Assembly (NCBI RefSeq): GCF_023115355.1
Contig: NZ_CP096019.1
Span: forward strand, 1,116,001-1,180,000
Source of the DNA: Halocatena salina
GTDB taxonomy: Archaea > Halobacteriota > Halobacteria > Halobacteriales > Haloarculaceae
Reading direction: 5' to 3'
Length of the DNA stretch: 64,000 bases
Of this stretch, positions 1-61,928 are shown one piece after another (the first letter of the stretch is position 1; each line of letters opens with the position of its first letter). The position numbers and the translations under genes were made by a program. The notes beneath the pieces were generated by a model, which saw only the letters and a program-made list of their open reading frames with translations, did no database searches and was not told the DNA's origin.

Positions 1-597
1 TGCGTCCGTCGTCCGCATGACCTCGTGAAACGGTCCCTGCCGAAATTTATCTCCGGTGGGACCGAGATACGGCCAGTGTGGCTGCATGTAGTGCACCATG
101 AGGCGTTTGTTCGGATACGTTTCTGCAGCCTCACGCGCAGCGTCTGATACCGTCTCCGGGTGTGAGGTACGCCCGTTCATGAGATCTCGGTCGGTGAAAT
201 CCAACGCGTGAACCTCCGCATCGATATCGTCTTTCGTCTTTGCGTACCAGTCGTTGGCAGTCACGTAGACGAGATCATGAAGCTGCTTGCCACCGAAATT
301 CCCTCGAACGAACTCCGGACTCGTACTTCCCCGAGAGATCCGGCTCTCCGTTTCTCCGGGAAGATCGGAGCAGCGAACGAATTCGTCGTATCGACACGCA
401 TCGAGAATGATGAGATTGTCCCAGTCCTCCTCGAACACGTCGATACCGTTCGGGTTGTACGGTTGTCCTGCACGCCAGTGGTTGTACTGCTGATTTATCT
501 CTGAAACGATGGAATGAGGATGTTTAATCCCGTGGATAACATCTTCTGTTCGATAGGGGAACCTGTTTGTAATCTTCTTAGTAACGTTAGCTATCAT
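1..597 (-). CDS. Sulfatase/alkaline-phosphatase-like protein, C-terminus beyond window
   Basis: The gene enters the window from the left and reads leftwards from an ATG at 597, so only the first 199 codons are visible. The protein resembles the complete gene at 3242-4189. Both share an N-terminal EEDWDNL-x-ILDACR segment (D66, C68 and R69 here), in which the Asp and the DACR turn resemble a metal site of the alkaline-phosphatase/sulfatase superfamily. Both also have a MQPHxPY/F segment in the middle. In haloarchaea such proteins are common in surface-glycan clusters, where they may act on sulfate or phosphate groups. The substrate is unknown. The second metal site would lie outside the window. 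Confidence 0.75.
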   Translation of the reverse strand, partial: MIANVTKKITNRFPYRTEDVIHGIKHPHSIVSEINQQYNHWRAGQPYNPNGIDVFEEDWDNLIILDACRYDEFVRCSDLPGETESRISRGSTSPEFVRGNFGGKQLHDLVYVTANDWYAKTKDDIDAEVHALDFTDRDLMNGRTSHPETVSDAAREAAETYPNKRLMVHYMQPHWPYLGPTGDKFRQGPFHEVMRTTDA

Positions 598-719
598 TGT
601 AATCCCTTAGTTACTTCGAGGGTTATTCCCCATAGATATAAAAATTACCGATCCATTTGTGTTATTATCCTCAATATTCTATCTTAGATATATTACGTCG
701 AAACGGACGCTGTGGGTGT

Positions 720-1844
720 TTATCGACGTGTGTCGGTAAGATCCCGATAGAGCGTTACGTACGATCGGGTGGTTTGACGGACATCGAACTGTTCCGATAC
801 GCGGCTGTATGCCCGGTCTCCAAACGGTTCATCCGTCGAAGCGACCCGTTTCATCGCATTAGATAGCTCGTTGGGCGACCGTGTCGGCACCAATACGCCC
901 GTCCGTTCGTGTTCAACCACTTCCTTCACACCAGATATGTCGGTTGCCACGATTGAAAGGTTAGCTGCCATCGCCTCCAAGATAGCGATCGGAAGTCCCT
1001 CTCGGACCGAAGAAGAGACGAACACATCAGCGAGACCGTAATATTCCGGGATGTCCTCGGATGGAACGCGACCGACTATCGTAACGGCATCCGAGAGATC
1101 GTGCTCTTTCACCGTCTTCCGGAGCGTAGATTCCATCTCTCCCCATCCCACAACCAGAAGATGGGCCTGTGGGAAGTCCTCTGTGAGATGATTCATGGCC
1201 AGAACGAGATCTTCTTGTGCTTTTGCCGGAACGTATCGCCCCACCGTGAGAAACAGCGGGTCACCGTGTATCCCTTTCCGAGCACGAAACTCGTCCGGAT
1301 CTGCTTGTTGAACTCGTTCGTGGAACTCCGTAACGTCGATCCCGTTGTAAATGGTACACCACTGTCCGTCCAACTGCCCCTCATACCGGTGAACCGTCCC
1401 TGTGAAGTCCCGTTCGATATCTCCCGCGACAGCGATGGTCGCGGCATCAAGCGGGCGCGTGATCCGTTCAAGCGTTCTCGTGATTGGATGTCGTTCGCTC
1501 GGAACGTTGTGTTGGGTCGTAATTATGTGGTCTACGTTCCCAAGGCGACCGAACACACGTCCGAGCGTTTGTGAATAGGGAAGATGAGCATGGACAATGT
1601 CGAACTTCTCATGGCGCAAAAAGCGAGCCAGTCGTGCGATGGCTCGTGGGTCGAATTTGAAGCCGGCATCGAAATCGACCACATCAGCCCCTGCCGCTTC
1701 GAACTCCGGTGCGAGCGTGTCTTCACCTTCGAGAAAACAGATCGTGTACGTGATATCCGAGGCGTCAGTGTTGCGAACGATATCAAGCAGCAGTGTCGGA
1801 GCACCTCCAGGAGCAAGTTGATTGATCAAGAAACAGACATTCAT
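720..1844 (-). CDS. Glycosyltransferase family 4 (GT-B fold)
   Basis: A 374-residue cytoplasmic glycosyltransferase. The N-terminal Rossmann domain opens with NQLAPGGAPTLLL, a donor/acceptor loop typical of GT4 enzymes, followed by VHAH at 84-87. The C-terminal nucleotide-sugar domain begins near residue 195 (FLTVGRY). It carries the E-x7-E motif (E282 and E290 in EGLPIAILE) that contacts the donor sugar. The length is normal for the family. It lies in a same-strand cluster with a GT2 enzyme and sulfatase-like genes, so assembly of a surface polysaccharide or S-layer N-glycan is the likely role. Donor and acceptor cannot be told from sequence. Confidence 0.9.
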   Translation of the reverse strand: MNVCFLINQLAPGGAPTLLLDIVRNTDASDITYTICFLEGEDTLAPEFEAAGADVVDFDAGFKFDPRAIARLARFLRHEKFDIVHAHLPYSQTLGRVFGRLGNVDHIITTQHNVPSERHPITRTLERITRPLDAATIAVAGDIERDFTGTVHRYEGQLDGQWCTIYNGIDVTEFHERVQQADPDEFRARKGIHGDPLFLTVGRYVPAKAQEDLVLAMNHLTEDFPQAHLLVVGWGEMESTLRKTVKEHDLSDAVTIVGRVPSEDIPEYYGLADVFVSSSVREGLPIAILEAMAANLSIVATDISGVKEVVEHERTGVLVPTRSPNELSNAMKRVASTDEPFGDRAYSRVSEQFDVRQTTRSYVTLYRDLTDTRR

Positions 1845-1998
1845 TTGCTCGGATACCTCATTTGAATCGGGTTTACGTAAGTATCGGAAAAAAAGTTAGC
1901 GCTTCGATGATGGGTATGAGATATTAGGGTTGTAGAAAGAAGTGTGTTCGATCTGGATGGTGTATGAAGAACGATAGCCGAACGAGAGGGTTCGACTG

Positions 1999-2979
1999 TC
2001 ACGCTAGGGTGGACCGGCATCGGTGATAGATGTTCGTAACGTCTCGTTTGAGGTGTTGGGCGAGTTTGTATCCCCGATCCCCGGTCATAGCGATGAACGC
2101 ATAGAGATAAAATTTCGGAACGAATGGCCATCGAACAAGTGCGGTAGCGAACGTGGTGCGGGCTTCGTCGTAATGTTCGTTGATCAAGGCAGCGTAGCCG
2201 AGATCGAACGTGAGATGAGCATACGACTTTTGTTTGAACAGCCATCCATACTCCGCGGCGATCGGCAGAAACGTGTCGATCACTTTCGGATAGGACGTTT
2301 CCTTTTTGACGGCGAAATTACCGCTCAGTTTGCTTCGTCCGTCTTCGCGTTGACTGACGACCAGCGGAGCGTCGATAGCTCCGAACTCACACTCCTGGGC
2401 CACTCGTAACAGCCATTCTCGATCGTTCCACGACGGTAACTCCTCGTCGAACGGGCCTGCAGCCGAAACGATCTCCTGTCGAACAGCGATCGAGGGAAAC
2501 GGAGGAGTGGACCCACACAAAAATTTCTTCGTCAGATCGCCTTCGTCTTTTGCGTCTCGAACAGCGATCGTAGACCCGCTCGGATCGAACATCTGTATAC
2601 CGGTGTATACGGCACCGACGTCGGGACCTTCGTTCTGTAAGACGTCGACTTGTCGTTCGATCTTGGTCGGTTTCCATTGCTCATCATCATCGAGAAACGC
2701 GAGTATTTCACCATCTGCGACCTCGATTCCGGTATTCCGCGCTGCGCTCGCCCCTTTGTTCTCCTCGTGACGGACGAAGACGATGTCACGCACCGATTCC
2801 TGAGAAGCGTCGTCGACGATATCTTGGGGTGACTCAGGTGAGTGGTCATCGACGACGACGAGTTCGATCTTCTCGTAGGTTTGATCGGTTACTGATTCGA
2901 TCGCTTCAGGTAAGTACTCCCGTCGGTCGTAAGTGGTGAGGATAACACTGACGAGGGGATCCGCGTTCGACGTGGGCAT
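1999..2979 (-). CDS. Glycosyltransferase family 2 (GT-A fold)
   Basis: A 326-residue GT2 enzyme. The N-terminal domain shows SVILTTYDRREYL, VVVDDHS (D44-D45, nucleotide binding), NKGASAARNTGI and the metal-binding LDDDEQW (D97-D99). A helical C-terminal part of about 100 residues contains no clear membrane segment. A TATA-like box about 25-33 bases upstream of the ATG supports the start. It is separated by about 150 bases from the GT4 gene and transcribed in the same direction. It probably adds one sugar of the glycan built by this cluster. Confidence 0.88.
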   Translation of the reverse strand: MPTSNADPLVSVILTTYDRREYLPEAIESVTDQTYEKIELVVVDDHSPESPQDIVDDASQESVRDIVFVRHEENKGASAARNTGIEVADGEILAFLDDDEQWKPTKIERQVDVLQNEGPDVGAVYTGIQMFDPSGSTIAVRDAKDEGDLTKKFLCGSTPPFPSIAVRQEIVSAAGPFDEELPSWNDREWLLRVAQECEFGAIDAPLVVSQREDGRSKLSGNFAVKKETSYPKVIDTFLPIAAEYGWLFKQKSYAHLTFDLGYAALINEHYDEARTTFATALVRWPFVPKFYLYAFIAMTGDRGYKLAQHLKRDVTNIYHRCRSTLA

Positions 2980-3004
2980 CGGTCTGTCTGTCGGATCATA
3001 CGTC

Positions 3005-3012
3005 TATAAAAA
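3005..3012 (-). promoter_or_regulatory. TATA box of the GT2 gene
   Basis: TTTTTATA on the minus strand is centred about 29 bases before the ATG at 2979. This is the spacing expected for a haloarchaeal promoter giving a leaderless or nearly leaderless transcript. Confidence 0.6.
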
Positions 3013-3241
3013 TGTCTATTACGATTCTGAAATAATTGTGATAATAATGGCGATGGTCGGACTCGAACGGACGAAGGGAGCCAATCGATGAACGATCGAA
3101 GACGAACGAGGCGTTCCACAGTCACTCACGGTGGATCAGCGTCGGTCACATCGATCGTTCGGCACACCGAAATTATCGCCGACGTACTAGCCGACATCAA
3201 TACGTAATACTTACCCTATTTGAATGAGTTCACCCGCTTAA

Positions 3242-4189
3242 ATGGGTGGCACATCAAGATACACATTTGATAATTTAGTCGATGCACTATACAACCCAGA
3301 ACGGTTCCTTGGAGAGATATATCGAATTTCTGTTGATATCAACGTTCGAGTTCACAGCTACCGAGACAACAGTGATGGTACTCGAGTCATCGAGGAGGAC
3401 TGGGACAATCTCGTCATCCTCGACGCCTGTAGGTTCGATATGTTCAATGAACAAAATATTTTGGACGGGCGTCTCGAACGGCGACGGTCACTCGGGAGTG
3501 AAAGCTGGGAGTTCCTCCAAGAGAACTTCGTCGGTGAAAGCCATCACGATGTCGTGTACGTGACGGCGAACCCCCACGCACCGAAGCTTCCGGCGGGAAC
3601 TTTCCACGAGGTAATCAACCTCCTTGAGAACGGCTGGGATCCGGAGCTACAGACCGTTCGTCCTGCGACAGTCGTGGATGCAGCCGTAGACGCTCACGAG
3701 ACGTATCCGAACAAACGCCTCATCATTCACTTCATGCAACCCCACTATCCGTTCATCGGCGAGCATGGACAGACGCTTACACACAGAGGGCTTCTCAACT
3801 CAACGGAGGATGAAGACGGTTCGAACCGTGAACGCCATCTTTGGGGCAGTCTTGGTCACGGCCGTCTCGACATCGATGCGGTCTGGCGTGCGTACAGAGA
3901 GAACCTCGATATTGCGCTCGAGGCAGTGAGCGGTCTGCTCGATACGCTTTCCGGCAAGTCGGTAGTGACATCAGATCACGGGAATCTCGTTGGCGAACGG
4001 ACTCGTCCACTCCCTGCTCGGGGATACGGTCATCCTCGTGGTTTGGATGTCCCTGAACTTCGGAACGTTCCCTGGCTCGTCGTGGAGGCGGACGAACGCC
4101 GATCGGTCGTCGCCGAGGAACCTGTAGAATCATCACAGCTCGGATCCGACGTGATCGACGACCGGTTGTCGGCCCTCGGCTACAAGTGA
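3242..4189 (+). CDS. Sulfatase/alkaline-phosphatase-like protein
   Basis: A 315-residue complete paralogue of the truncated gene at 1-597. Visible superfamily features are the N-terminal ILDACRFD (D61, C63, R64), the central HFMQPHYPF (163-171) and the C-terminal metal-site motif TSDHGN (D245, H246). There is no signal peptide or membrane segment, so it appears cytoplasmic. It faces away from the glycosyltransferases and converges with the O-antigen-ligase-like gene. It is shorter than classical sulfatases (about 450-500 residues) and lacks the CxPxR formylglycine motif, so 'sulfatase' describes the fold, not a proven reaction. Confidence 0.78.
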   Translation: MGGTSRYTFDNLVDALYNPERFLGEIYRISVDINVRVHSYRDNSDGTRVIEEDWDNLVILDACRFDMFNEQNILDGRLERRRSLGSESWEFLQENFVGESHHDVVYVTANPHAPKLPAGTFHEVINLLENGWDPELQTVRPATVVDAAVDAHETYPNKRLIIHFMQPHYPFIGEHGQTLTHRGLLNSTEDEDGSNRERHLWGSLGHGRLDIDAVWRAYRENLDIALEAVSGLLDTLSGKSVVTSDHGNLVGERTRPLPARGYGHPRGLDVPELRNVPWLVVEADERRSVVAEEPVESSQLGSDVIDDRLSALGYK

Positions 4190-4247
4190 ACCTGCGGAGT
4201 CCTTCGGTCACTCGGAAAAGCTCCGGGTCACAGCGATTTCTGAAGAT

Positions 4248-5939
4248 TCACTTCGAAATCGATCCCTGTCGGTCGCTTCGCCCTGACGGTGGAACTGACG
4301 ATCTACCCTGCATAGTTGCACCGACGACGAACCCAGCCACCGTCCAGAACACCATCAGCGCCACACTGCCAGATGCGTGGATCGCCGTCCAAAACGCGTA
4401 CGCGTAAAATCCCAAAAGTCCACACACTAACGCAGCCCACAACGTCTGAGATTCATCCGATGAAAGACCCTGTTTGGCAGCACACCCTAGTATCGCAATG
4501 AGACACATAACAAACGTGATCGCAGCGGGAACACCGCCACTCGCAAGCGTCATCAGATAGATGTTGTGGATCGATTTCGGTTCATGGATGCCATACGATT
4601 GGGCCATCCAGAGGAAGTTGTGTCCCCCGATCCCGAAGAGTGGATACTGCAAACCGAGATCGACTGCTCCGAGGTACTGTTTGACCCGTACCGAAACGTT
4701 TGCTGTGCTGACTAAGGGAACGTTCCCAATGAGTTCGATTATTTGTTCTTCATGCGATAATTGTCTCGTCCCAGAGCCGGATTCCCACGAGCCTCCTGGA
4801 ACGCCAGAGGGACCCGAATCGGAATCATCCTGGATCGTAGCACTTCGCATCGTGAACAAGACGACATTGAACGCGCCAGCCCCCATCGAACTAGCTACTC
4901 CGAGGACCGAATCCCGCACTGCTGTAACCCCTCCAGTGGACAGTTCTCGAACGGCTAGATAAACGCCAACGGCAGATATCGATCCGATCACGATCCCGAA
5001 CGCCCCGAATCCCGCATCTGTTCCACTGATACGAATGAGTAGTGCGCTACAGAAAAGAGCGATAGCGGACAAAACCTTCCATACCGAAGAGCGATTGATA
5101 ATGACCTCGACCAGCACTGGCGTCATCAATATGAGGATAGCCACGAGAATCCTCGATGTGCTCGTGAATCCTCCAGCGAATTGACCGGTCATGAATGACA
5201 CTGGACCGAGGTGAATGAGACCCTGTTTGGTGCCACTTCCCTCCCCGAGATAGCTCAGGCCAAACCAAACGCGGTTTAGCGTCTGCACGACCGCAAAGAG
5301 CAACTGAAAGGAGATAGCAATGAGCATCGAGTATATTGCAGTTGAAATTCCAGAAAAACGAACAATTATGATGGCTACAATAAAGAGTGAGAGATGTCGC
5401 AGTTGGGTGACAGCGAAGACCAACCCGGCGGCTCTCGAAGGACCGTTACCGACGATTCCTGCAAGAAACGACCAGAGCACGAAACCAGCGAGACTGAAAA
5501 CTGCCACGGCTTGTAACCGGGACAGCGACGAGAACGAAGGCCATTTCAAGCGGCCAGAAAGGGTCCACACACCGAGAAGCACCAGAAACGGCAGGAGAAC
5601 CATATCGACTAACATCACGTTAAGGACGACCGTCTTCCCCGAACCGACCGGTAGCTCATACAGCGGAACGTTTGCAGCAAACGTCGTGAGTACGATGATT
5701 GCACTACAGAGCCCTTCGAACACACTGTCGGTACCAACTAACACGAAAAGGTAGCAGAGACCACTGATCCCGACTAACAGGAGAACAGGTACACCAGTCG
5801 TGAGCGCGACGACCGGAACACCGACGACGAGCAAACCCGCAAGACAAAACGCAGTCAAGAAGAATTTATTTCTATCAACAGTTTGTGGAGGGGAAGAAAT
5901 AGCAGACAGGATTGGAACGTTAGTCATGCGGTATCTCAT
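4248..5939 (-). CDS. O-antigen ligase/polymerase-like membrane protein
   Basis: A 563-residue polytopic membrane protein with roughly 12 hydrophobic segments. A long hydrophilic, probably extracellular loop spans residues 366-457, followed by HNIYL at 458-462 and LASGGVPA. This loop-plus-HN[IV]YL arrangement is typical of the Wzy_C/O-antigen-ligase family, which polymerises or transfers lipid-linked glycans on the outer face of the membrane. Together with the flippase at 6309 it forms the export half of the glycan cluster. The start could instead be the ATG at 5927. Confidence 0.82.
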   Translation of the reverse strand: MRYRMTNVPILSAISSPPQTVDRNKFFLTAFCLAGLLVVGVPVVALTTGVPVLLLVGISGLCYLFVLVGTDSVFEGLCSAIIVLTTFAANVPLYELPVGSGKTVVLNVMLVDMVLLPFLVLLGVWTLSGRLKWPSFSSLSRLQAVAVFSLAGFVLWSFLAGIVGNGPSRAAGLVFAVTQLRHLSLFIVAIIIVRFSGISTAIYSMLIAISFQLLFAVVQTLNRVWFGLSYLGEGSGTKQGLIHLGPVSFMTGQFAGGFTSTSRILVAILILMTPVLVEVIINRSSVWKVLSAIALFCSALLIRISGTDAGFGAFGIVIGSISAVGVYLAVRELSTGGVTAVRDSVLGVASSMGAGAFNVVLFTMRSATIQDDSDSGPSGVPGGSWESGSGTRQLSHEEQIIELIGNVPLVSTANVSVRVKQYLGAVDLGLQYPLFGIGGHNFLWMAQSYGIHEPKSIHNIYLMTLASGGVPAAITFVMCLIAILGCAAKQGLSSDESQTLWAALVCGLLGFYAYAFWTAIHASGSVALMVFWTVAGFVVGATMQGRSSVPPSGRSDRQGSISK

Positions 5940-6308
5940 CTGGTGTAATGGTACTGCAGACGACCCTTTAGTGGTTACGTGATTATTTTTCTATAATTAC
6001 TATTTTAATTATTATATGTTAGTTTATTATATATTTTTATGGAATATACATATAAATAATTGATCTGGAGTGGCGTAGCATTGATGCTACGATCAATGTA
6101 TATTATCGATATGTTGATCCAAATTTCGATAACCACACAAAAACACAACATATACCTATTCACCATTGGTATGCCAGCACACGAGAATGACTCCAGTAGC
6201 GAACTCTGCTGTTATGAGCCGGGGTGAGCGATGTACTGTTTCTCACTCATTACTTAGTGGTTCCGGACGTCCGATCCACGAATTCGCTCACCGGACAGAC
6301 GTGGGGAC
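5940..6308. other. AT-rich spacer between divergent glycan-export genes
   Basis: About 370 bases without a gene. The part from 5985 to 6165 is very AT-rich, far below the surrounding base composition, and contains several possible TATA boxes for the divergent genes at 5939 and 6309. It also holds the palindrome at 6074-6091. No ORF here looks coding. Confidence 0.7.
6074..6091. repeat. Perfect inverted repeat in an AT-rich spacer
   Basis: CGTAGCAT-TG-ATGCTACG has two perfect 8-bp arms with a 2-base spacer. A weaker outer pair (ATTGATC at 6059 and GATCAAT at 6091) surrounds it. It may be an operator for the divergent export genes or a cruciform/terminator. No poly-T tract follows. Confidence 0.6.
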
Positions 6309-7820
6309 ATGAGCGAACAAACGACCTCCGAATCCACCGTCTCGCCTCTTCGATCGATCGTTGATGGAGCGTCGATCTTTCTGGTCGGTGAAATCTTGTA
6401 CAAGGCCTCCGGATTCGTCTTGAATTTCCTTCTAGCACGAACGCTCGGATCGACGCTTTACGGCATCTACACGTATGCCTACACGTATATCACCGTCTCT
6501 ACGATGTTCGCGAGCCTCGGCAGCGATCAGGCCGTTCTGCGGTATTTTCCGTCGTATTCGGACGACGAAGACGCCCAGAGCTGGATTGCTGGGATATCAG
6601 TACTCTCCTCGGTCATCGGTAGCTGCGTCGTTGCTGGCATGCTGTGGGTTCTGGCCCCGACGATTCGGTGGTATACGGGCAACAGCGAGCTGTTCGTCGA
6701 CGTGATGCGGATCATTGCGATCATGCTCCCGTTCGATACTCTCACGAAGATGTTGGCGAGCATGTTTCGGGGGCTTGAACATCCTACCGAGCAGATTTTC
6801 TTACAGAAGATCGTTCGTCCGGGAGCAAGAATCTGTGCCGTCGGAGTCGCCCTGCTGTTAGGATACACGCTCATTGATACGGTCGCCGCGCTCGTCGTGG
6901 CTAGCGTGCTTGCGTTCGTGATCGGAGTCGTGCTTTTGGTCCGTCGGACGTCTCTCCGACCATCGTTTTCGGGGATGTCCGGTACGGCATCGACGCCGGA
7001 GATCACCGCCTACTACAACTACTCGCTGCCGTTGATGCTTTCGAAGGCAGGGACCATCCTGTACAATCGCGTCGACGTTTTCATGGTCGGGCTACTCATC
7101 GGGATGAGTTCGACCGGCTATTACAACATCGCGTTTCTCATGTCGAGCGCGATCACGCTCCCACTGACGGGATGTAACCAACTGTTCGCCCCGATCGCAT
7201 CACGGCTGTACGACAACGGTGAGGTGGACGAACTCAACGAGATCTACGCCACTGTCACGCGCTGGGCGTTTACACTCGCGCTGTTCGCTGCCCTCGGTGC
7301 GATCGTCTACGCCCCGGACATCCTCTCGCTGATCGACGACGAATACACCGTTGCTGTGCCTGTCCTCTCACTATTCGCCGTGGGACAGCTGTTGAACGCG
7401 AGCGTCGGACCCAGCAACTACCTCCTCATGATGACCGACCACCAGTACGTTACGTTCGTCAATCATTGGGTGTTCGGCGTCGTCAACGTGGTGTTGAATT
7501 TCATTTTCATCCTCCAATTTGGTCTGATAGGGGCCGCACTCGCTACCGCAAGCATTCTTGGACTGTTAAACGTCGTTCGCTGGATCGAAATCAGATATCT
7601 CGAAGGCCTATCACCGTACTCACGTGCGTTCTACAAACCGCTCGTTGCAGGTGTCGGGGCCACGGGCGCATTGTATCTCCCAACACTGTGGCTCTCTGAG
7701 ATACCGCTTCTCGTGGTCGGGGGAAGTCTCGGAGCAGTCGTCTACGGCTTGATACTGTACGCCCTCGGCATAGAACAGTCCGATATTACGTTTGCTCGAC
7801 AGATGATTGAGTCACGTTGA
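6309..7820 (+). CDS. Wzx-type flippase (MOP superfamily)
   Basis: A 503-residue integral membrane protein with about 14 predicted hydrophobic segments. Early residues such as ASIFLVGEILYKASGFVLNF and LLARTLGSTLYGIY are typical of polysaccharide-biosynthesis/RfbX flippases, which move lipid-linked oligosaccharides across the cytoplasmic membrane. The length matches the family (about 450-510). The ATG at 6309 follows the AT-rich spacer. It probably exports the glycan made by the glycosyltransferases at 720-2979, for use by the ligase/polymerase encoded divergently. Confidence 0.85.
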   Translation: MSEQTTSESTVSPLRSIVDGASIFLVGEILYKASGFVLNFLLARTLGSTLYGIYTYAYTYITVSTMFASLGSDQAVLRYFPSYSDDEDAQSWIAGISVLSSVIGSCVVAGMLWVLAPTIRWYTGNSELFVDVMRIIAIMLPFDTLTKMLASMFRGLEHPTEQIFLQKIVRPGARICAVGVALLLGYTLIDTVAALVVASVLAFVIGVVLLVRRTSLRPSFSGMSGTASTPEITAYYNYSLPLMLSKAGTILYNRVDVFMVGLLIGMSSTGYYNIAFLMSSAITLPLTGCNQLFAPIASRLYDNGEVDELNEIYATVTRWAFTLALFAALGAIVYAPDILSLIDDEYTVAVPVLSLFAVGQLLNASVGPSNYLLMMTDHQYVTFVNHWVFGVVNVVLNFIFILQFGLIGAALATASILGLLNVVRWIEIRYLEGLSPYSRAFYKPLVAGVGATGALYLPTLWLSEIPLLVVGGSLGAVVYGLILYALGIEQSDITFARQMIESR

Positions 7821-7839
7821 TCGACACACTCACCGACGA

Positions 7840-8838
7840 TCAATCGCTGGCGTCTTCGAGATCGGGCGCGTTGTCATAGCCTGCTCGAAGGAGTTCGCGG
7901 TAGCGTTTACGGATCGTAACCGCGCTGACGTCGGCAACGTCGGAGATCTGCCGTTGGGTGAGATCTTCTTCCATGAGCAGTCCAGCAGCGTAGAGGGCAG
8001 CAGCGGCCAACCCCACTGGGTTTTTTCCGCTATGAACGCCTTCACGGCGTGCAGCATCGAGAAGATCACGCGCCCGTCGTTCAGTCTCATCACGCACGTG
8101 AAGGTCACTTGCAAACCGAGGAAGGTAGCTCATCGGCCGTGCCGGTGCAATTTCGAGTTCTAGTGCCTGCACTAGATGACGGTAGGCGCGTTTGAACCGG
8201 AGCGCTTTGACGCGGCTGACAGAGGCTACTTCATCGAGCGTTCGGGGCGTATTGGCCTGTCTCGCAGCGGCGTACAGGGCAGCAGTTGCAACGCCTTCGA
8301 TCGATCGGCCCTGAAGATGTCCCTCAGAAAGTGCGCGTCGGTAGATGACACTCGCGGTCTCACGAATCGTCTCGGGAAGACCGAGCGCCGACGCCATGCG
8401 CTCGATTTCCCCGAGCGCCTGTTTGAGGTTGCGCTCTTGGGCATCACCTGCCTGCACGCGCGCGTTCCACGTCCGAAGTCGTTGTACCTTCTGGCGCTGT
8501 CGAGACGACAAGGTGGTGCCGTAGGCGTCAGTGTCCTGCCAATCGATCGTGGTCGATAATCCCTTATCGTGTAACAGGTTCGTCGTTGGTGACCCAACTC
8601 GGGATTTCTCATCGCGCTCACTCGGCTCGAATGCACGCCATTCGGGGCCTCGATCGATCCCACCACTCTCGATGACGAGACCACAGTCCTGACAGACCAA
8701 CTCTCCGTGTTCGGAATCCTCGATGAGCGACCCGGTGCACTCCGGACACACTGTTGGGTCTGTTTGTGAGTGCTCACGCTCCGAGGTGGTGTCTGTTGTC
8801 GATACGTCGGTCCGCTCGTACGATGTTACGTTGGTCAC
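7840..8838 (-). CDS. tfb: Transcription initiation factor TFB
   Basis: A 332-residue archaeal homologue of TFIIB. An N-terminal zinc ribbon (C31, C34, C49, C52) binds RNA polymerase. A B-reader-like stretch GPEWRAFEPSERDEKSRVG follows. Two cyclin-like repeats cover roughly residues 120-320 and contact TBP and BRE DNA; they include LPETIRETASVIYRRALS and an arginine-rich C-terminal helix-turn-helix. The start is a GTG at 8838. Haloarchaea carry several TFB paralogues with different target promoters, and this may be one of those. It converges with the flippase and is divergent from a Bat-type regulator. Confidence 0.93.
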   Translation of the reverse strand: MTNVTSYERTDVSTTDTTSEREHSQTDPTVCPECTGSLIEDSEHGELVCQDCGLVIESGGIDRGPEWRAFEPSERDEKSRVGSPTTNLLHDKGLSTTIDWQDTDAYGTTLSSRQRQKVQRLRTWNARVQAGDAQERNLKQALGEIERMASALGLPETIRETASVIYRRALSEGHLQGRSIEGVATAALYAAARQANTPRTLDEVASVSRVKALRFKRAYRHLVQALELEIAPARPMSYLPRFASDLHVRDETERRARDLLDAARREGVHSGKNPVGLAAAALYAAGLLMEEDLTQRQISDVADVSAVTIRKRYRELLRAGYDNAPDLEDASD

Positions 8839-36224: not shown

Positions 36225-36470
36225 ATGAAGATCGAATACGATCGAGACACCTGCATCGGAATGTTTCAGTGTGTCGCGGAGTGGGACGGATTCGAGAAGG
36301 ACGAAACGGCGGGGAAGGCCGTTCTCGTGGATGGCGAAGAGGAGCAACCTGACACGTTCGTCCAGACAGTGCCCGCAGACGCCGAACTCGACGCGAAGTT
36401 CGCTGCCCGCGTTTGCCCTGTCGACGCCATCACCGTGTACGACGACGACGGCGAACAGCTCGTTCCCTGA
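36225..36470 (+). CDS. Ferredoxin with three cysteines (probably 3Fe-4S)
   Basis: An 81-residue acidic ferredoxin. It has C10-x5-C16 (CIGMFQC) and a distal VCPVDAI. The usual third cysteine of CxxCxxC is Met13, so a [3Fe-4S] cluster, as in P450-type ferredoxins, is likely. A TFVQTVPADAELDAKFAARV insert separates the two parts. It may donate electrons to a monooxygenase, but no partner is encoded nearby. It converges with the rhodopsin gene. Confidence 0.8.
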   Translation: MKIEYDRDTCIGMFQCVAEWDGFEKDETAGKAVLVDGEEEQPDTFVQTVPADAELDAKFAARVCPVDAITVYDDDGEQLVP

Positions 36471-36499
36471 CGTAGCGGCTGGTGGTCCGAGCGATCACG

Positions 36500-37261
36500 T
36501 CATCCCCCGAGCGTCCGGGGTTTCGTGTTCGTCGGTTCGTCGATCGGACCGTCCGCTTGGAGGAGAGCGATTCCGATCCCGACTTTTACGAGGAGATCGA
36601 GGAGGAGATACGCGAGCAACAAACCGGTCGTCGGGAGGACATCGAGAACGTGACCGAGCAGCCACACGACTGGATACAGTCCGAAGAGTACGATAACGAG
36701 GTTCCGGACCATGCTGAACAGCATTGCTACTTCCGTCGACCGTTCGGCAGCAGCACGCGAGAGCGGACGGACCAACAGTACGAAGACGCTGAGATAAGCG
36801 AGAACACTCGCTCCTAACAGCGCGAGCCGAAACGTTTCCGCGTCTAGTCCCCCCATTCCCCGGTTGGTGAGCACCGTTGCGAGACCGAGCACCATCATCG
36901 ACGCGTCGAAGCCGACGAGTGCGGCTGCTGTCCGGCGCGTCCCGGCCGCGAGTAGTACGAGCGCGAGTAGTATCAGTGGTGTAGTGAGGAGCCAGTCCAC
37001 GAAATGGAGCCAATACACTGTGTGTAGTTCGCTGCCGTACCGTACTGTCATCGTGCCGTAACCGAGCGTCAACAGTAGGTACGTGAGACCACCGATAGCG
37101 GCGACCGCGACGGTGAGTACCGACAGTTTGCGTTTCGTCGGGTCCGTTTCCCCCCATCCGGTCTTGAGGAAGTAGCCGGTTGCGAGCACCAATGCGATCG
37201 TTCCAAGGAGTAACCAGATCCGACCGCTATCGATGGCCTCAGCCTGTAGCAACACTGCCAT
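36500..37261 (-). CDS. Type 1 (microbial) rhodopsin, atypical
   Basis: A 253-residue seven-helix retinal protein from ATG 37261; a TATATTT-like box about 30 bases upstream supports a leaderless start, although the frame is open to 37435. Helix G has DLLVK with Schiff-base Lys226 and counter-ion Asp222. Helix C reads YWLHFVDWLLTTPL. By alignment with bacteriorhodopsin, D85 is kept (D89), R82 is His86, D96 is Ala100, D115 is kept (D119) and W182 is Phe193. Loss of the proton-donor Asp argues against efficient pumping and suggests a sensor or another activity. No transducer gene is adjacent. Confidence 0.88.
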   Translation of the reverse strand: MAVLLQAEAIDSGRIWLLLGTIALVLATGYFLKTGWGETDPTKRKLSVLTVAVAAIGGLTYLLLTLGYGTMTVRYGSELHTVYWLHFVDWLLTTPLILLALVLLAAGTRRTAAALVGFDASMMVLGLATVLTNRGMGGLDAETFRLALLGASVLAYLSVFVLLVRPLSRAAAERSTEVAMLFSMVRNLVIVLFGLYPVVWLLGHVLDVLPTTGLLLAYLLLDLLVKVGIGIALLQADGPIDEPTNTKPRTLGG

Positions 37262-37287
37262 CGAACTGGCTATCGAGAGTGTCTGAC

Positions 37288-37297
37288 TTATATTTGA
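37288..37297 (-). promoter_or_regulatory. TATA box of the rhodopsin gene
   Basis: The minus strand reads TCAAATATAA here, 27-36 bases upstream of the ATG at 37261. This spacing favours that start over upstream ones. Confidence 0.55.
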
Positions 37298-37406
37298 CTT
37301 TTCGACGCAGCCACCAGTAATGTGTGCATCCCGTGAATACATCACACGGCTGTAGGATGGCAGCTGCTGCGAATCGGATTCACAGCGCGTGTAGTTGCGG
37401 CGCTCG

Positions 37407-38318
37407 TCATTGGCGGAGCTGGGCAGTGGTCTCACCGTCGTGCTCGTCCGTTTCGACGAGACCGTCGGCTTCGAGATCGGAAAGCAGCTCTCGGAGCCAC
37501 GCCCGGCCGTATTCGCCGTCGGGGCTATAATCGACCCGGACGCGCGGTCCGAGAGTGTCTAGTGGGAGTTCGTCGTACTCTTTGAGGACCGAGATCACGC
37601 GGCCTCGCATCTGTCGCCGGCTGCCCTCGAATTCGGGCTGGGTCGGGACGTCCGGCGCGGTGAAATCGCCCGTCTGGTAGGCGTGACACCACTCGCGCCA
37701 CGGACAGCCGGCGGCGTCACACCGAGGCGTCTTCTGACACGCAACGCCGCCGAGTTCCATGATGGCGTTGTTCCACACCCGGGACGCCCCCTCGGGCATC
37801 AACTCCGCAGCGGTGTCCTCGAACGCCGCGTCTGAATCCGGAACGTCGAACGCCCGGTACAGTACGCGTTTGACGTTGGTGTCGACGACGGCATTGCCCT
37901 CGTTGAACGCGAAACTGGCGACCGCGTTGGCCGTGTAGGGACCGACGCCCTGAAGCGATCGTAACGCCGTGGGCGAGGTGGGGAACTCGCCGTCGTGCTC
38001 GTCAAGTACCTGCTGTGCTGCGGTGTGAAGATATTTCGCTCGGTTGTTGTAGCCCAGTCGGTGGTCGGACCAGAACGACACTACGGCACCTCGCTCCGCA
38101 GCGGCGAGATCGGCCACCGTAGGCCATCGATCGAGAAACGCCGTCCACGCTTTTTCGACCCGTTCCAGCTGTGTCTGTTGGCTCATCACTTCCGACACAA
38201 GGATCGCATACGGATCGGTGGTCCGTCGCCACGGGAAATCACGATGGTCGGACTCGTACCATTCGATGAGCACCGCGCGAACGTCGCCAGTGTCCTCGGG
38301 AAGGGAGGCTGCTTCGGT
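37407..38318 (-). CDS. mutY: A/G-specific adenine glycosylase MutY
   Basis: A 303-residue base-excision-repair glycosylase that removes adenine opposite 8-oxoguanine. The start is ATG 38318 (MTEAASLPEDTG). Motifs are the catalytic-Glu segment LVSEVMSQQTQLERV, the helix-hairpin-helix LQGVGPYTANAVASFAF with catalytic Asp in VVDTNVKRVL, and an iron-sulfur loop CQKTPRCDAAGCPWREWC whose spacing (5-4-5) differs from the bacterial 6-2-5. The C-terminal part is a winged-helix-like domain rather than a MutT-like domain. It lies upstream of the rhodopsin on the same strand with a 145-base gap. Confidence 0.93.
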   Translation of the reverse strand, partial: TEAASLPEDTGDVRAVLIEWYESDHRDFPWRRTTDPYAILVSEVMSQQTQLERVEKAWTAFLDRWPTVADLAAAERGAVVSFWSDHRLGYNNRAKYLHTAAQQVLDEHDGEFPTSPTALRSLQGVGPYTANAVASFAFNEGNAVVDTNVKRVLYRAFDVPDSDAAFEDTAAELMPEGASRVWNNAIMELGGVACQKTPRCDAAGCPWREWCHAYQTGDFTAPDVPTQPEFEGSRRQMRGRVISVLKEYDELPLDTLGPRVRVDYSPDGEYGRAWLRELLSDLEADGLVETDEHDGETTAQLRQ

Positions 38319-38452
38319 CATTGACCCCACGTAGAAACTCCAGCCCGTAAACGATCTCGACACCGACTGGACCGGTCACTCCAACACTGCTGTCTCCCGC
38401 TTTTCGGGCAGGTACCCCGAAAGAAGAGCGAACGCGGTGTGTGTCGTAACGA

Positions 38453-59663: not shown

Positions 59664-61928
59664 ATGGATGTCGAATCGGTGCCGGGGGTGCCGTCGTGGC
59701 TACCTGGGCATCTCCGTGATGGTGGTATCGAGAAGCTGTATCCGCCACAGGCCGACGCCGTCGAAGCGGGCGTGACGGAGGGAGAGAGCGTGGTTGCGAG
59801 CGTGCCGACCGCGAGCGGGAAAACGCTCATCTCGGAGCTGGCGATGCTTTCGAGCGTCGAGCGAGGTGGAAAAGCGCTGTACATCGTTCCGTTGCGCGCG
59901 CTCGCCAGCGAGAAACACCGAGAGTTCGAGCAGTACGAAGAGTACGGCGTGTCGGTGGGCGTCTCGACGGGGAACTACGAATCCAGCGGTGAGTGGCTGG
60001 CGTCCTCGGACATCGTCGTGGCCACGAGCGAGAAGGTCGATTCGCTCGTTCGCAACGGCGCGCCGTGGATCTCGGAGCTGTCGTGTGTCGTCGCTGATGA
60101 GGTGCATCTCGTCGACGATCCGAACCGAGGACCGACGCTCGAAGTGACGCTGGCGAAACTGCGACGACGCAATCCGAACGTCCAGACGGTGGCGCTCTCT
60201 GCGACCGTCGGCAACGCCGAGGAGGTCGCCGAGTGGCTCGATGCGGCGCTTGTCGATTCTCAGTGGCGACCGATCGACCTGCAGACCGGCGTCCACTACG
60301 GGCAAGCGCTGCAGTTCGATGATGGCTCACAAACGGAGCTACCGGTCGGTTCGGGAGAGAAACCGACGGCTGCAATCGTGCGGGACACGCTCACGGAAGG
60401 CGGTTCGACGCTCGTGTTCGTCAACTCCCGACGGAACGCCTCGGGAGCCGCCAAACGCCTCGGGAGCGTCACCGACGAACGACTCACTGCGGAAGAACGC
60501 GACCAACTAGCCGCGGTCGCTGCAGAGATCCGGGACGCAAGCGATACGGAGACGAACGCGGAACTGGCCCGCGCCGTCGAACGCGGTGCGGCGTTTCATC
60601 ACGCCGGATTGTCCCGGAAAAGCCGAACGCTCATCGAAGACGCGTTCCGTGACCGCCTCATCAAGGTCGTAGCGGCAACGCCGACGCTCGCTGCCGGCGT
60701 CAACACCCCATCACGGCGCGTGGTCGTCCGGGACTGGCGGCGGTACGACGGCTCCGCTGGTGGAATGGTCCCGTTATCGGTGCTCGAAGTTCACCAGATG
60801 TTCGGACGCGCGGGACGACCCGGACGCGATCCGTACGGCGAGGCGCTGCTGTTGGCGAACAGTCACGACGAGCTGGACGAACTGTTCGAAAAATACGTGT
60901 GGGCCGATCCCGAGCCGGTTCGCTCGAAGCTCGCCGCCGAACCCGCGTTACGCACGCACATCCTCGCAACCGTCGCCTCGGGGGTTGCAAACTCCCGTGA
61001 GGGGTTGCTCACCTTCCTTGACCAAACCCTGTACGCCACCCAAACGAGCGACAGCGATGAGTTACAGCGGGTAACCGACGACTGCATCGACTACCTACTC
61101 GTGAACGAGTTCCTCGAATCCGACCGGGAGGACGGAACCCAGTCGCTCGACGCGACGAGCCTCGGACACACCGTATCACGGCTGTATCTCGATCCGATGA
61201 GCGCAGCCGAAATCATCGATGGACTTCGTGGGGCGAGCGACGTAACGCCCCTCGGCCTGTATCAGCTCGTCTGCCGGACGCCGGACATGTACGAACTGTA
61301 TCTCCGATCGGGCGAGGAAGAAACGTACACGACGACGGCCTACGAACGCGAGACGGAGTTTTTGGGGGCGATGCCGAGCGAGTTCGAGCAAGCCCGCTTC
61401 GAGGAGTGGCTGTCGGCGTTGAAAACGGCGCGCCTGCTCGAAGATTGGGCGCGAGAATTCGATGAAGACGAGATCACCGACCGCTACGGCGTCGGACCGG
61501 GTGACATCCGTGGAAAGGTCGACACCGCCGAATGGTTGCTCGGCGCGACCGAACGGCTCGCCGGCGAGTTAGAGTTGGAGATCGCACCGGCGATCCACAC
61601 CGCCAGAAAGCGTGTCGAACACGGGGTGAGCGAGGACCTCATCGATCTCACCGATGTGCGTCACGTCGGACGAAAGCGTGCCCGGCGGCTGTTCGAAGCG
61701 GGCATCGAAACGCGGGCAGACCTTCGAAATGCCGATAAGAGCGTCGTACTCGGCGCGCTCCGGGGGAGGCAGAAAACAGCAGAACGCATCCTCGAACAGG
61801 TCGGGCACACCGATCCCGATATGACGAACGTGACTGCAAGCGAGCGCAGCCGTTCCGACGTGGAAACAACCGATGCCACGAACGCACAGGCGGCGGACGC
61901 CGACCAATCCCAGCTCGGTGATTTCTGA
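59664..61928 (+). CDS. hel308: Hel308 Ski2-like DNA helicase
   Basis: A 754-residue helicase that remodels stalled forks. Motifs are YPPQADAV (Q motif), [14 protein letters not shown] (Walker A), [46 protein letters not shown] and [12 protein letters not shown]. The winged helix and ratchet follow, and near the C-terminus the helix-hairpin-helix [20 protein letters not shown]. The polar tail ends QSQLGDF, a possible PCNA-binding motif (QxxLxxF). The cgi121 ATG overlaps its stop (TGATG). Confidence 0.95.

Follow-up and report, generated by a model that had tools for sequence, protein, structure and literature searches.

The window, by which we mean the whole stretch of 64,000 nucleotides of the Halocatena salina genome that was analysed, encodes a microbial rhodopsin at 36500-37261, coordinates that were given correctly in a preliminary description made from the DNA alone. 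The minus strand carries the gene: across this interval the plus strand is interrupted by stops, and the open frame runs from 37261 to 36500. Its encoded N-terminus, MAVLLQ, is identical in all six orthologs compared, and its C-terminal tail, TKPRTLGG, is conserved as well. The protein matches the full-length Pfam domain Bac_rhodopsin (PF01036) over residues 14-235 (1.1e-37) and solved bacteriorhodopsins in the PDB at 3.4e-39, with bacteriorhodopsin (BR), cruxrhodopsin and deltarhodopsin as its nearest solved relatives by sequence; this whole-domain homology, along with the alignment of Lys226 to BR-K216, identifies it as a type 1 (microbial) rhodopsin. An AlphaFold run with four sequences gave a pLDDT of 46, which is too low to support a search by fold. 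The features of the locus are as follows.

36500..37261, minus strand: coding sequence of the His82-type opsin, 253 amino acids (ATG 37261-37259, stop 36502-36500), from the translation, PF01036 and the start common to orthologs
37262..37305, minus strand: conserved core promoter and start region, near-identical in six genomes
37004..37006, minus strand: His86, codon CAT, at the BR-Arg82 position, from gap-free alignment to BR and cruxrhodopsin
36995..36997, minus strand: Asp89, the primary counter-ion BR-D85, retained (alignments)
36962..36964, minus strand: Ala100, replacing the proton donor BR-D96 (alignments; Ala in all six compared orthologs)
36815..36817, minus strand: Leu149, replacing the pocket tryptophan BR-W138 (alignments)
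36683..36685, minus strand: Phe193, replacing the pocket tryptophan BR-W182 (alignments)
36596..36598, minus strand: Asp222, the second counter-ion BR-D212, retained (alignments)
36584..36586, minus strand: Lys226, the Schiff-base lysine BR-K216, retained (alignments)
36225..36470, plus strand: convergent 4Fe-4S ferredoxin (Pfam Fer4_15, 3e-21)

Helix C of the opsin aligns without gaps to that of solved bacteriorhodopsin (YWLHFVDWLLTTPL versus YWARYTDWLFTTPL), and the gap-free register against solved bacteriorhodopsins extends through helices A to C. His86 therefore corresponds to R82, Asp89 to D85 and Ala100 to D96. The preliminary description had allowed that another register might conceal an Arg at BR-82; with helix C aligned in this way that is ruled out, and its reading of R82 as His86, of D96 as Ala100, of W182 as Phe193, and of the counter-ions (D89, D222) and Lys226 as intact is borne out by the alignment to BR. 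Absent from that description are the wider changes of the pocket and the loss of the release glutamates, E194 being replaced by His and E204 by Leu, so that the proton-release group has gone too. Chance or sequencing error is excluded because the same His recurs in YIM A00010, H. pleomorpha and H. marina and in another two Halocatena, in proteins with identities down to 49%. All six compared orthologs have His at 82 and Ala at 96 and lack both E194 and E204; Arg occupies position 82 in BR and in all 28 of the nearest haloarchaeal rhodopsins compared.

Intact orthologs with His at BR-82 are present in all seven Halocatena genomes searched, two of which are H. marina assemblies, and in five of the seven, that of the window among them, the His opsin is the sole rhodopsin. 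Identity to the window protein is 90% in H. pleomorpha, 84% in YIM A00010, 63% in H. marina and ~49-50% in the two further genomes. Within the searches made, close orthologs were confined to the genus; the six His proteins form a single clade with full support (100/100) in the rhodopsin tree, and beyond Halocatena the closest rhodopsin of the Arg type, in genome G238, is 42% identical. The preliminary description had also proposed a wider search for His at the R82 position. Searching the DNA of 391 genomes of the class for the motif YWxHxxDW, which would overlook His proteins deviating at other motif residues, returned the four sampled Halocatena genomes and five outside the genus; the matched loci in those five encode no rhodopsin. 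A viral collection yielded no relative of the His opsin.

The opsin resembles the proton pumps bacteriorhodopsin, cruxrhodopsin and deltarhodopsin in its gap-free helix C and in having the same Schiff-base site, but it differs from them by R82H, D96A, the loss of E194 and E204 and a remodelled pocket: of the relay residues D85 alone is kept, with H, A, H and L at positions 82, 96, 194 and 204. Replacement of Arg82 is reported to weaken or abolish proton release by BR (PMC9601134). Nor is the protein a halorhodopsin, since Asp rather than Thr stands at position 85 in all six compared orthologs (DTA motif). The earlier view that these residues match neither a proton nor a chloride pump is supported on both counts, by the absence of R82, D96, E194 and E204 and by the Asp at 85, and judged from its residues the opsin should not pump either ion.

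This has a bearing on the related hyphal strain YIM 93972, for which proteomic evidence of a ‘halorhodopsin’ has been reported (PMC10067837). That protein is probably the product of the same gene as the His opsin, because the strain's relative YIM A00010 has the His opsin as its single opsin. If so, the halorhodopsin label looks wrong, given that chloride pumps have Thr at 85 and the tested orthologs Asp, and what was published as a ‘halorhodopsin’ of hyphal haloarchaea is possibly no ion pump.

With His at BR-82 and the helix-G Lys kept, the protein is an H-type Alt-rhodopsin as defined in the relevant part of Bulzu et al. 2022 (PMC9601134), and like that class it combines the change of Arg82 to His with seven helices and the retained lysine; xenorhodopsins, by the definition given in the same part, have Trp or Phe at 82, and with His there the protein is not one of them. 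The text there reports 214 H-type sequences, counts three Halobacteriota among Alt-rhodopsins and draws attention to an H-type clade from giant viruses; Halocatena may already be among those listed. His at 82 is therefore rare, yet it was known before and is not new as such. What the Halocatena opsin adds to the H-type pattern is that D96, E194 and E204 have gone as well and that, except in H. marina, the pocket is altered and retinal genes are lacking. The literature consulted did not show a lost relay combined with pocket alterations that go hand in hand with the retinal genes and with a lysine kept under selection.

Without Arg82 the extracellular half channel might stay open, which would make the protein a light-gated passive proton conductance or a weak, leaky pump. 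The experiments on which such a view can draw are those described in the relevant part of PMC4657025, where the Coccomyxa rhodopsin pump carrying R83Q becomes for the most part a passive proton channel and BR-R82Q is leaky too. However, the substitution tested there was Gln, not His, and the published mutants kept pocket and donor, whereas the Halocatena opsin lacks D96 and has a changed pocket, and its retinal supply is doubtful. We regard this explanation as improbable.

The residues around the chromophore fall into two groups that have fared differently. Among 23 positions that we take, from knowledge of the BR structure, to form the retinal pocket, the window protein is changed at 11, including W138L, W182F, A53G and A215V, a position counting as changed where its residue was never seen in 29 Arg rhodopsins. 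Across the five genomes without brp the number is 11-13 of 23, as against 4 of 23 in H. marina; H. marina keeps M20, A53, W138, W182 and A215, every one of which is replaced in each of the five other orthologs. The Schiff-base-site residues K216, D85, D212, T89, Y57, W86, Y185 and W189 are completely conserved, K216, D85 and D212 being invariant even in the most diverged Halocatena members. In the five brp-less genomes eight of nine positions of the Schiff-base site are kept versus 19-26 of 44 other invariant positions (Fisher p 0.014-0.09). This conservation argues that something is still bound at the site, and counts against a retinal-independent reading. The remodelled pocket and the kept Schiff-base site point in opposite directions, which is a real puzzle. 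No single pocket change is decisive, since BR tolerates W182F on its own (PMC9364214).

The distribution of genes for retinal synthesis parallels that of the pocket changes. A search of the window's genome, which is 98% complete, found no brp/blh (BCD), no RPE65-family oxygenase and no two-domain lycopene cyclase, the sole match being a short protein that carries one CarR domain, although such searches can overlook diverged genes. The check for brp/blh elsewhere in the genome that the preliminary description had suggested is included here. Its statement that the opsin should bind retinal is not supported as it stood, both because W182, W138, A53, A215 and M20 are lost and because none of these three types of gene was detected; a functional retinal protein, binding retinal and absorbing visible light, is nevertheless possible. 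Outside the genus, brp/blh is present in 183 of 187 genomes of the class with a strong rhodopsin match, and its absence from three of four sampled Halocatena compares with 4/187 elsewhere (Fisher p 1e-4, indicative only, as related genomes of the same genus are not independent). Across the seven Halocatena genomes it occurs only in the two H. marina assemblies. H. marina is the only member that keeps the pocket, and the only one with brp and with a lycopene cyclase beside the His opsin.

In the H. marina assembly G277 a two-domain lycopene cyclase is divergent from the His82 opsin (L003 5089-5811) and is missing at the His-opsin locus of other genus members; its closest match among compared loci is the cyclase beside the G238 rhodopsin (48.5%). 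A second H. marina locus has two tandem Arg-type rhodopsin genes followed by lycopene cyclase and brp/blh (L071 3132-7615); no other canonical retinal cluster was seen in Halocatena. As opsin, lycopene cyclase and BCD are clustered in that order in G238, the retinal genes probably adjoined the opsin in the ancestor, and the simplest reading would be that the His opsin arose from a G238-like cluster and that the retinal genes were lost later. The rhodopsin tree places H. marina outside the other members (AU p 0.056), while Hel308 and malate dehydrogenase leave one versus two losses undecided, and pocket and brp may have been lost once or twice.

Several minor observations concern retinal supply. 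The lone CarR-domain protein (105-122 aa; L070 4139-4456, own genome C1 ~186.1-186.5 kb) is shared with H. pleomorpha and YIM A00010 and is half the normal size of a lycopene cyclase. An RPE65-family carotenoid oxygenase, not seen in the window's genome, is encoded in G183 and G393 (L058, L059) and in H. marina (L056), where it is a possible alternative source of retinoid. Four genomes, G076, G082, G191 and G205 (L075-L078), have a strong rhodopsin match and no brp/blh match, possibly owing to assembly gaps or to another route to retinal. A membrane protein of ~220-250 aa (L075 5775-6536, L076 ~6997-7650 on the minus strand, L077 8076-8852) adjoins many haloarchaeal rhodopsin genes and has no Pfam or NCBIfam match; as a brp substitute in G076, G082 and G191 it is uninformative, since it also adjoins ordinary rhodopsins.

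An altered pocket together with missing retinal genes recalls the haloarchaeal ORPs (retinal-free opsins), which have altered pockets and occur as the only opsins in genomes without crtY and brp (Becker et al. 2016, PMC4915679). The window's protein, likewise the sole opsin of its genome, shares the degenerate pocket and the absence of crtY and brp. ORPs, however, lack K216, group with sensory opsins and often lie beside HAMP/MCP genes (PMC4915679), whereas the Halocatena opsin is BR-like, keeps both counter-ions as well as the lysine (Lys in all six compared orthologs) and has no MCP.

The preliminary description noted that no Htr transducer lies beside the opsin, and this holds: the neighbouring genes in the window are mutY and the ferredoxin, with no signalling gene next door. 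It had also considered an unpaired htr gene elsewhere, but the MCP-signal domain PF00015 has no match anywhere in the window's genome, paired or unpaired, whereas a positive control in Haloferax was matched; four of the seven Halocatena genomes have MCPs, one each. Lacking a cognate Htr (MCP) transducer, the protein is not a sensory rhodopsin I or II, and with no MCP-signal domain found an Htr-type phototaxis sensor is very unlikely in this genome. The proposed role as a sensor is possible in itself, but no Htr/MCP partner was found in this genome. The missing MCPs fit the published lack of motility in the morphogenetic clade (PMC10067837).

A photoreceptor of another kind can be envisaged, a true one with a slow photocycle, which would obtain retinal from neighbours or by another pathway and in which light would alter the contact with a non-Htr partner. 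Sensory rhodopsins usually lack the proton donor and release groups, which counts for this view, as does the full conservation of the Schiff-base site from K216 to W189. Moreover, Aurantimicrobium makes retinal without known genes and a rhodopsin can function in this way (PMC7734400), and hence a missing brp is no proof of missing retinal. On the other hand, the five pocket residues from M20 to A215 are replaced only in lineages without brp, and there is neither an MCP in the genome nor a signalling gene adjoining the opsin. We consider a photoreceptor of this kind possible but doubtful.

Whatever its role, the gene is maintained. Between the window gene and its orthologs the dN/dS ratio is 0.13 for H. 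pleomorpha and 0.15 for YIM A00010; for G183 with G393, as a pair the most distant members, it is 0.26, and across closer ortholog pairs it covers 0.13-0.27. Such purifying selection argues that the gene is no relic. A promoter block of ~44 bases ends at the ATG and is near-identical in six genomes though the sequence further upstream differs. It contains a TATA-like AAATATAA at 37288-37295, ~26 nt before the ATG; the transcript is probably leaderless, and the 14-base core of the block occurs once in the 64-kb window. The changes within the block are for the most part other than synonymous, and it is thus probably regulatory rather than coding. As upstream neighbour the window and H. pleomorpha have mutY, whereas YIM A00010, G393 and G183 have malate dehydrogenase and H. 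marina has lycopene cyclase; the block has therefore been preserved despite relocation of the opsin gene. A decaying gene without function, left over from a phototrophic cluster that was lost, could account for the loss of pump residues, retinal genes and neighbouring lycopene cyclase alike, but the gene is intact in all seven genus genomes, its promoter survived the move and its active site is invariant. That explanation is largely refuted, and we give it very little credence.

Taken together, we favour the reading, to which we assign a probability of about one half, that a former BR-type proton pump has become a non-pumping regulatory opsin that is independent of self-made retinal in the lineage of the window. 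According to this model, the ancestor of the genus had its proton relay dismantled by R82H, D96A and the disappearance of E194 and E204, but kept the Schiff-base site; the residue losses are seen in the sequence, and from them we infer the loss of pumping. In the lineage of the window, the genome search and the comparison with H. marina show a remodelled pocket and no retinal-making genes. The protein would now sit in the membrane as an opsin for regulation or signalling with no need of self-made retinal, its output in this organism passing through something other than an Htr/MCP transducer. It might work in either of two modes, retinal-free like the ORPs or with another aldehyde on Lys226; retinal-free working, retinal scavenging and the holding of another aldehyde are all possible. 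More tentatively, the lineage may stand between a light pump and a non-light protein: relay, pocket and retinal genes lost, lysine and counter-ions selected, and Lys226 holding a different aldehyde or serving a retinal-free proton or signalling switch. The genus contains both stages, H. marina with a near-intact pocket and retinal genes and its relatives with a changed pocket and none, so that whether and how microbial opsins work without retinal, or lose it, is directly testable in culturable species.

The surroundings of the opsin also vary within the genus. The ferredoxin is linked to it at every genus locus examined (L001, L002, L003, L068, L069). The order malate dehydrogenase, opsin, ferredoxin, Hel308 is found in YIM A00010 and G393 (and in G183 as far as checked), and in H. 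marina the lycopene cyclase stands between malate dehydrogenase and opsin in that order. In the window and in H. pleomorpha the opsin-ferredoxin pair lies beside mutY (window 36225-38363), Hel308 being ~22 kb away in the window (59664-61925). Positions 1-8000 of the window have a G+C content of ~0.53, as against ~0.60 for most of it, and are possibly a recent insertion or mobile region.
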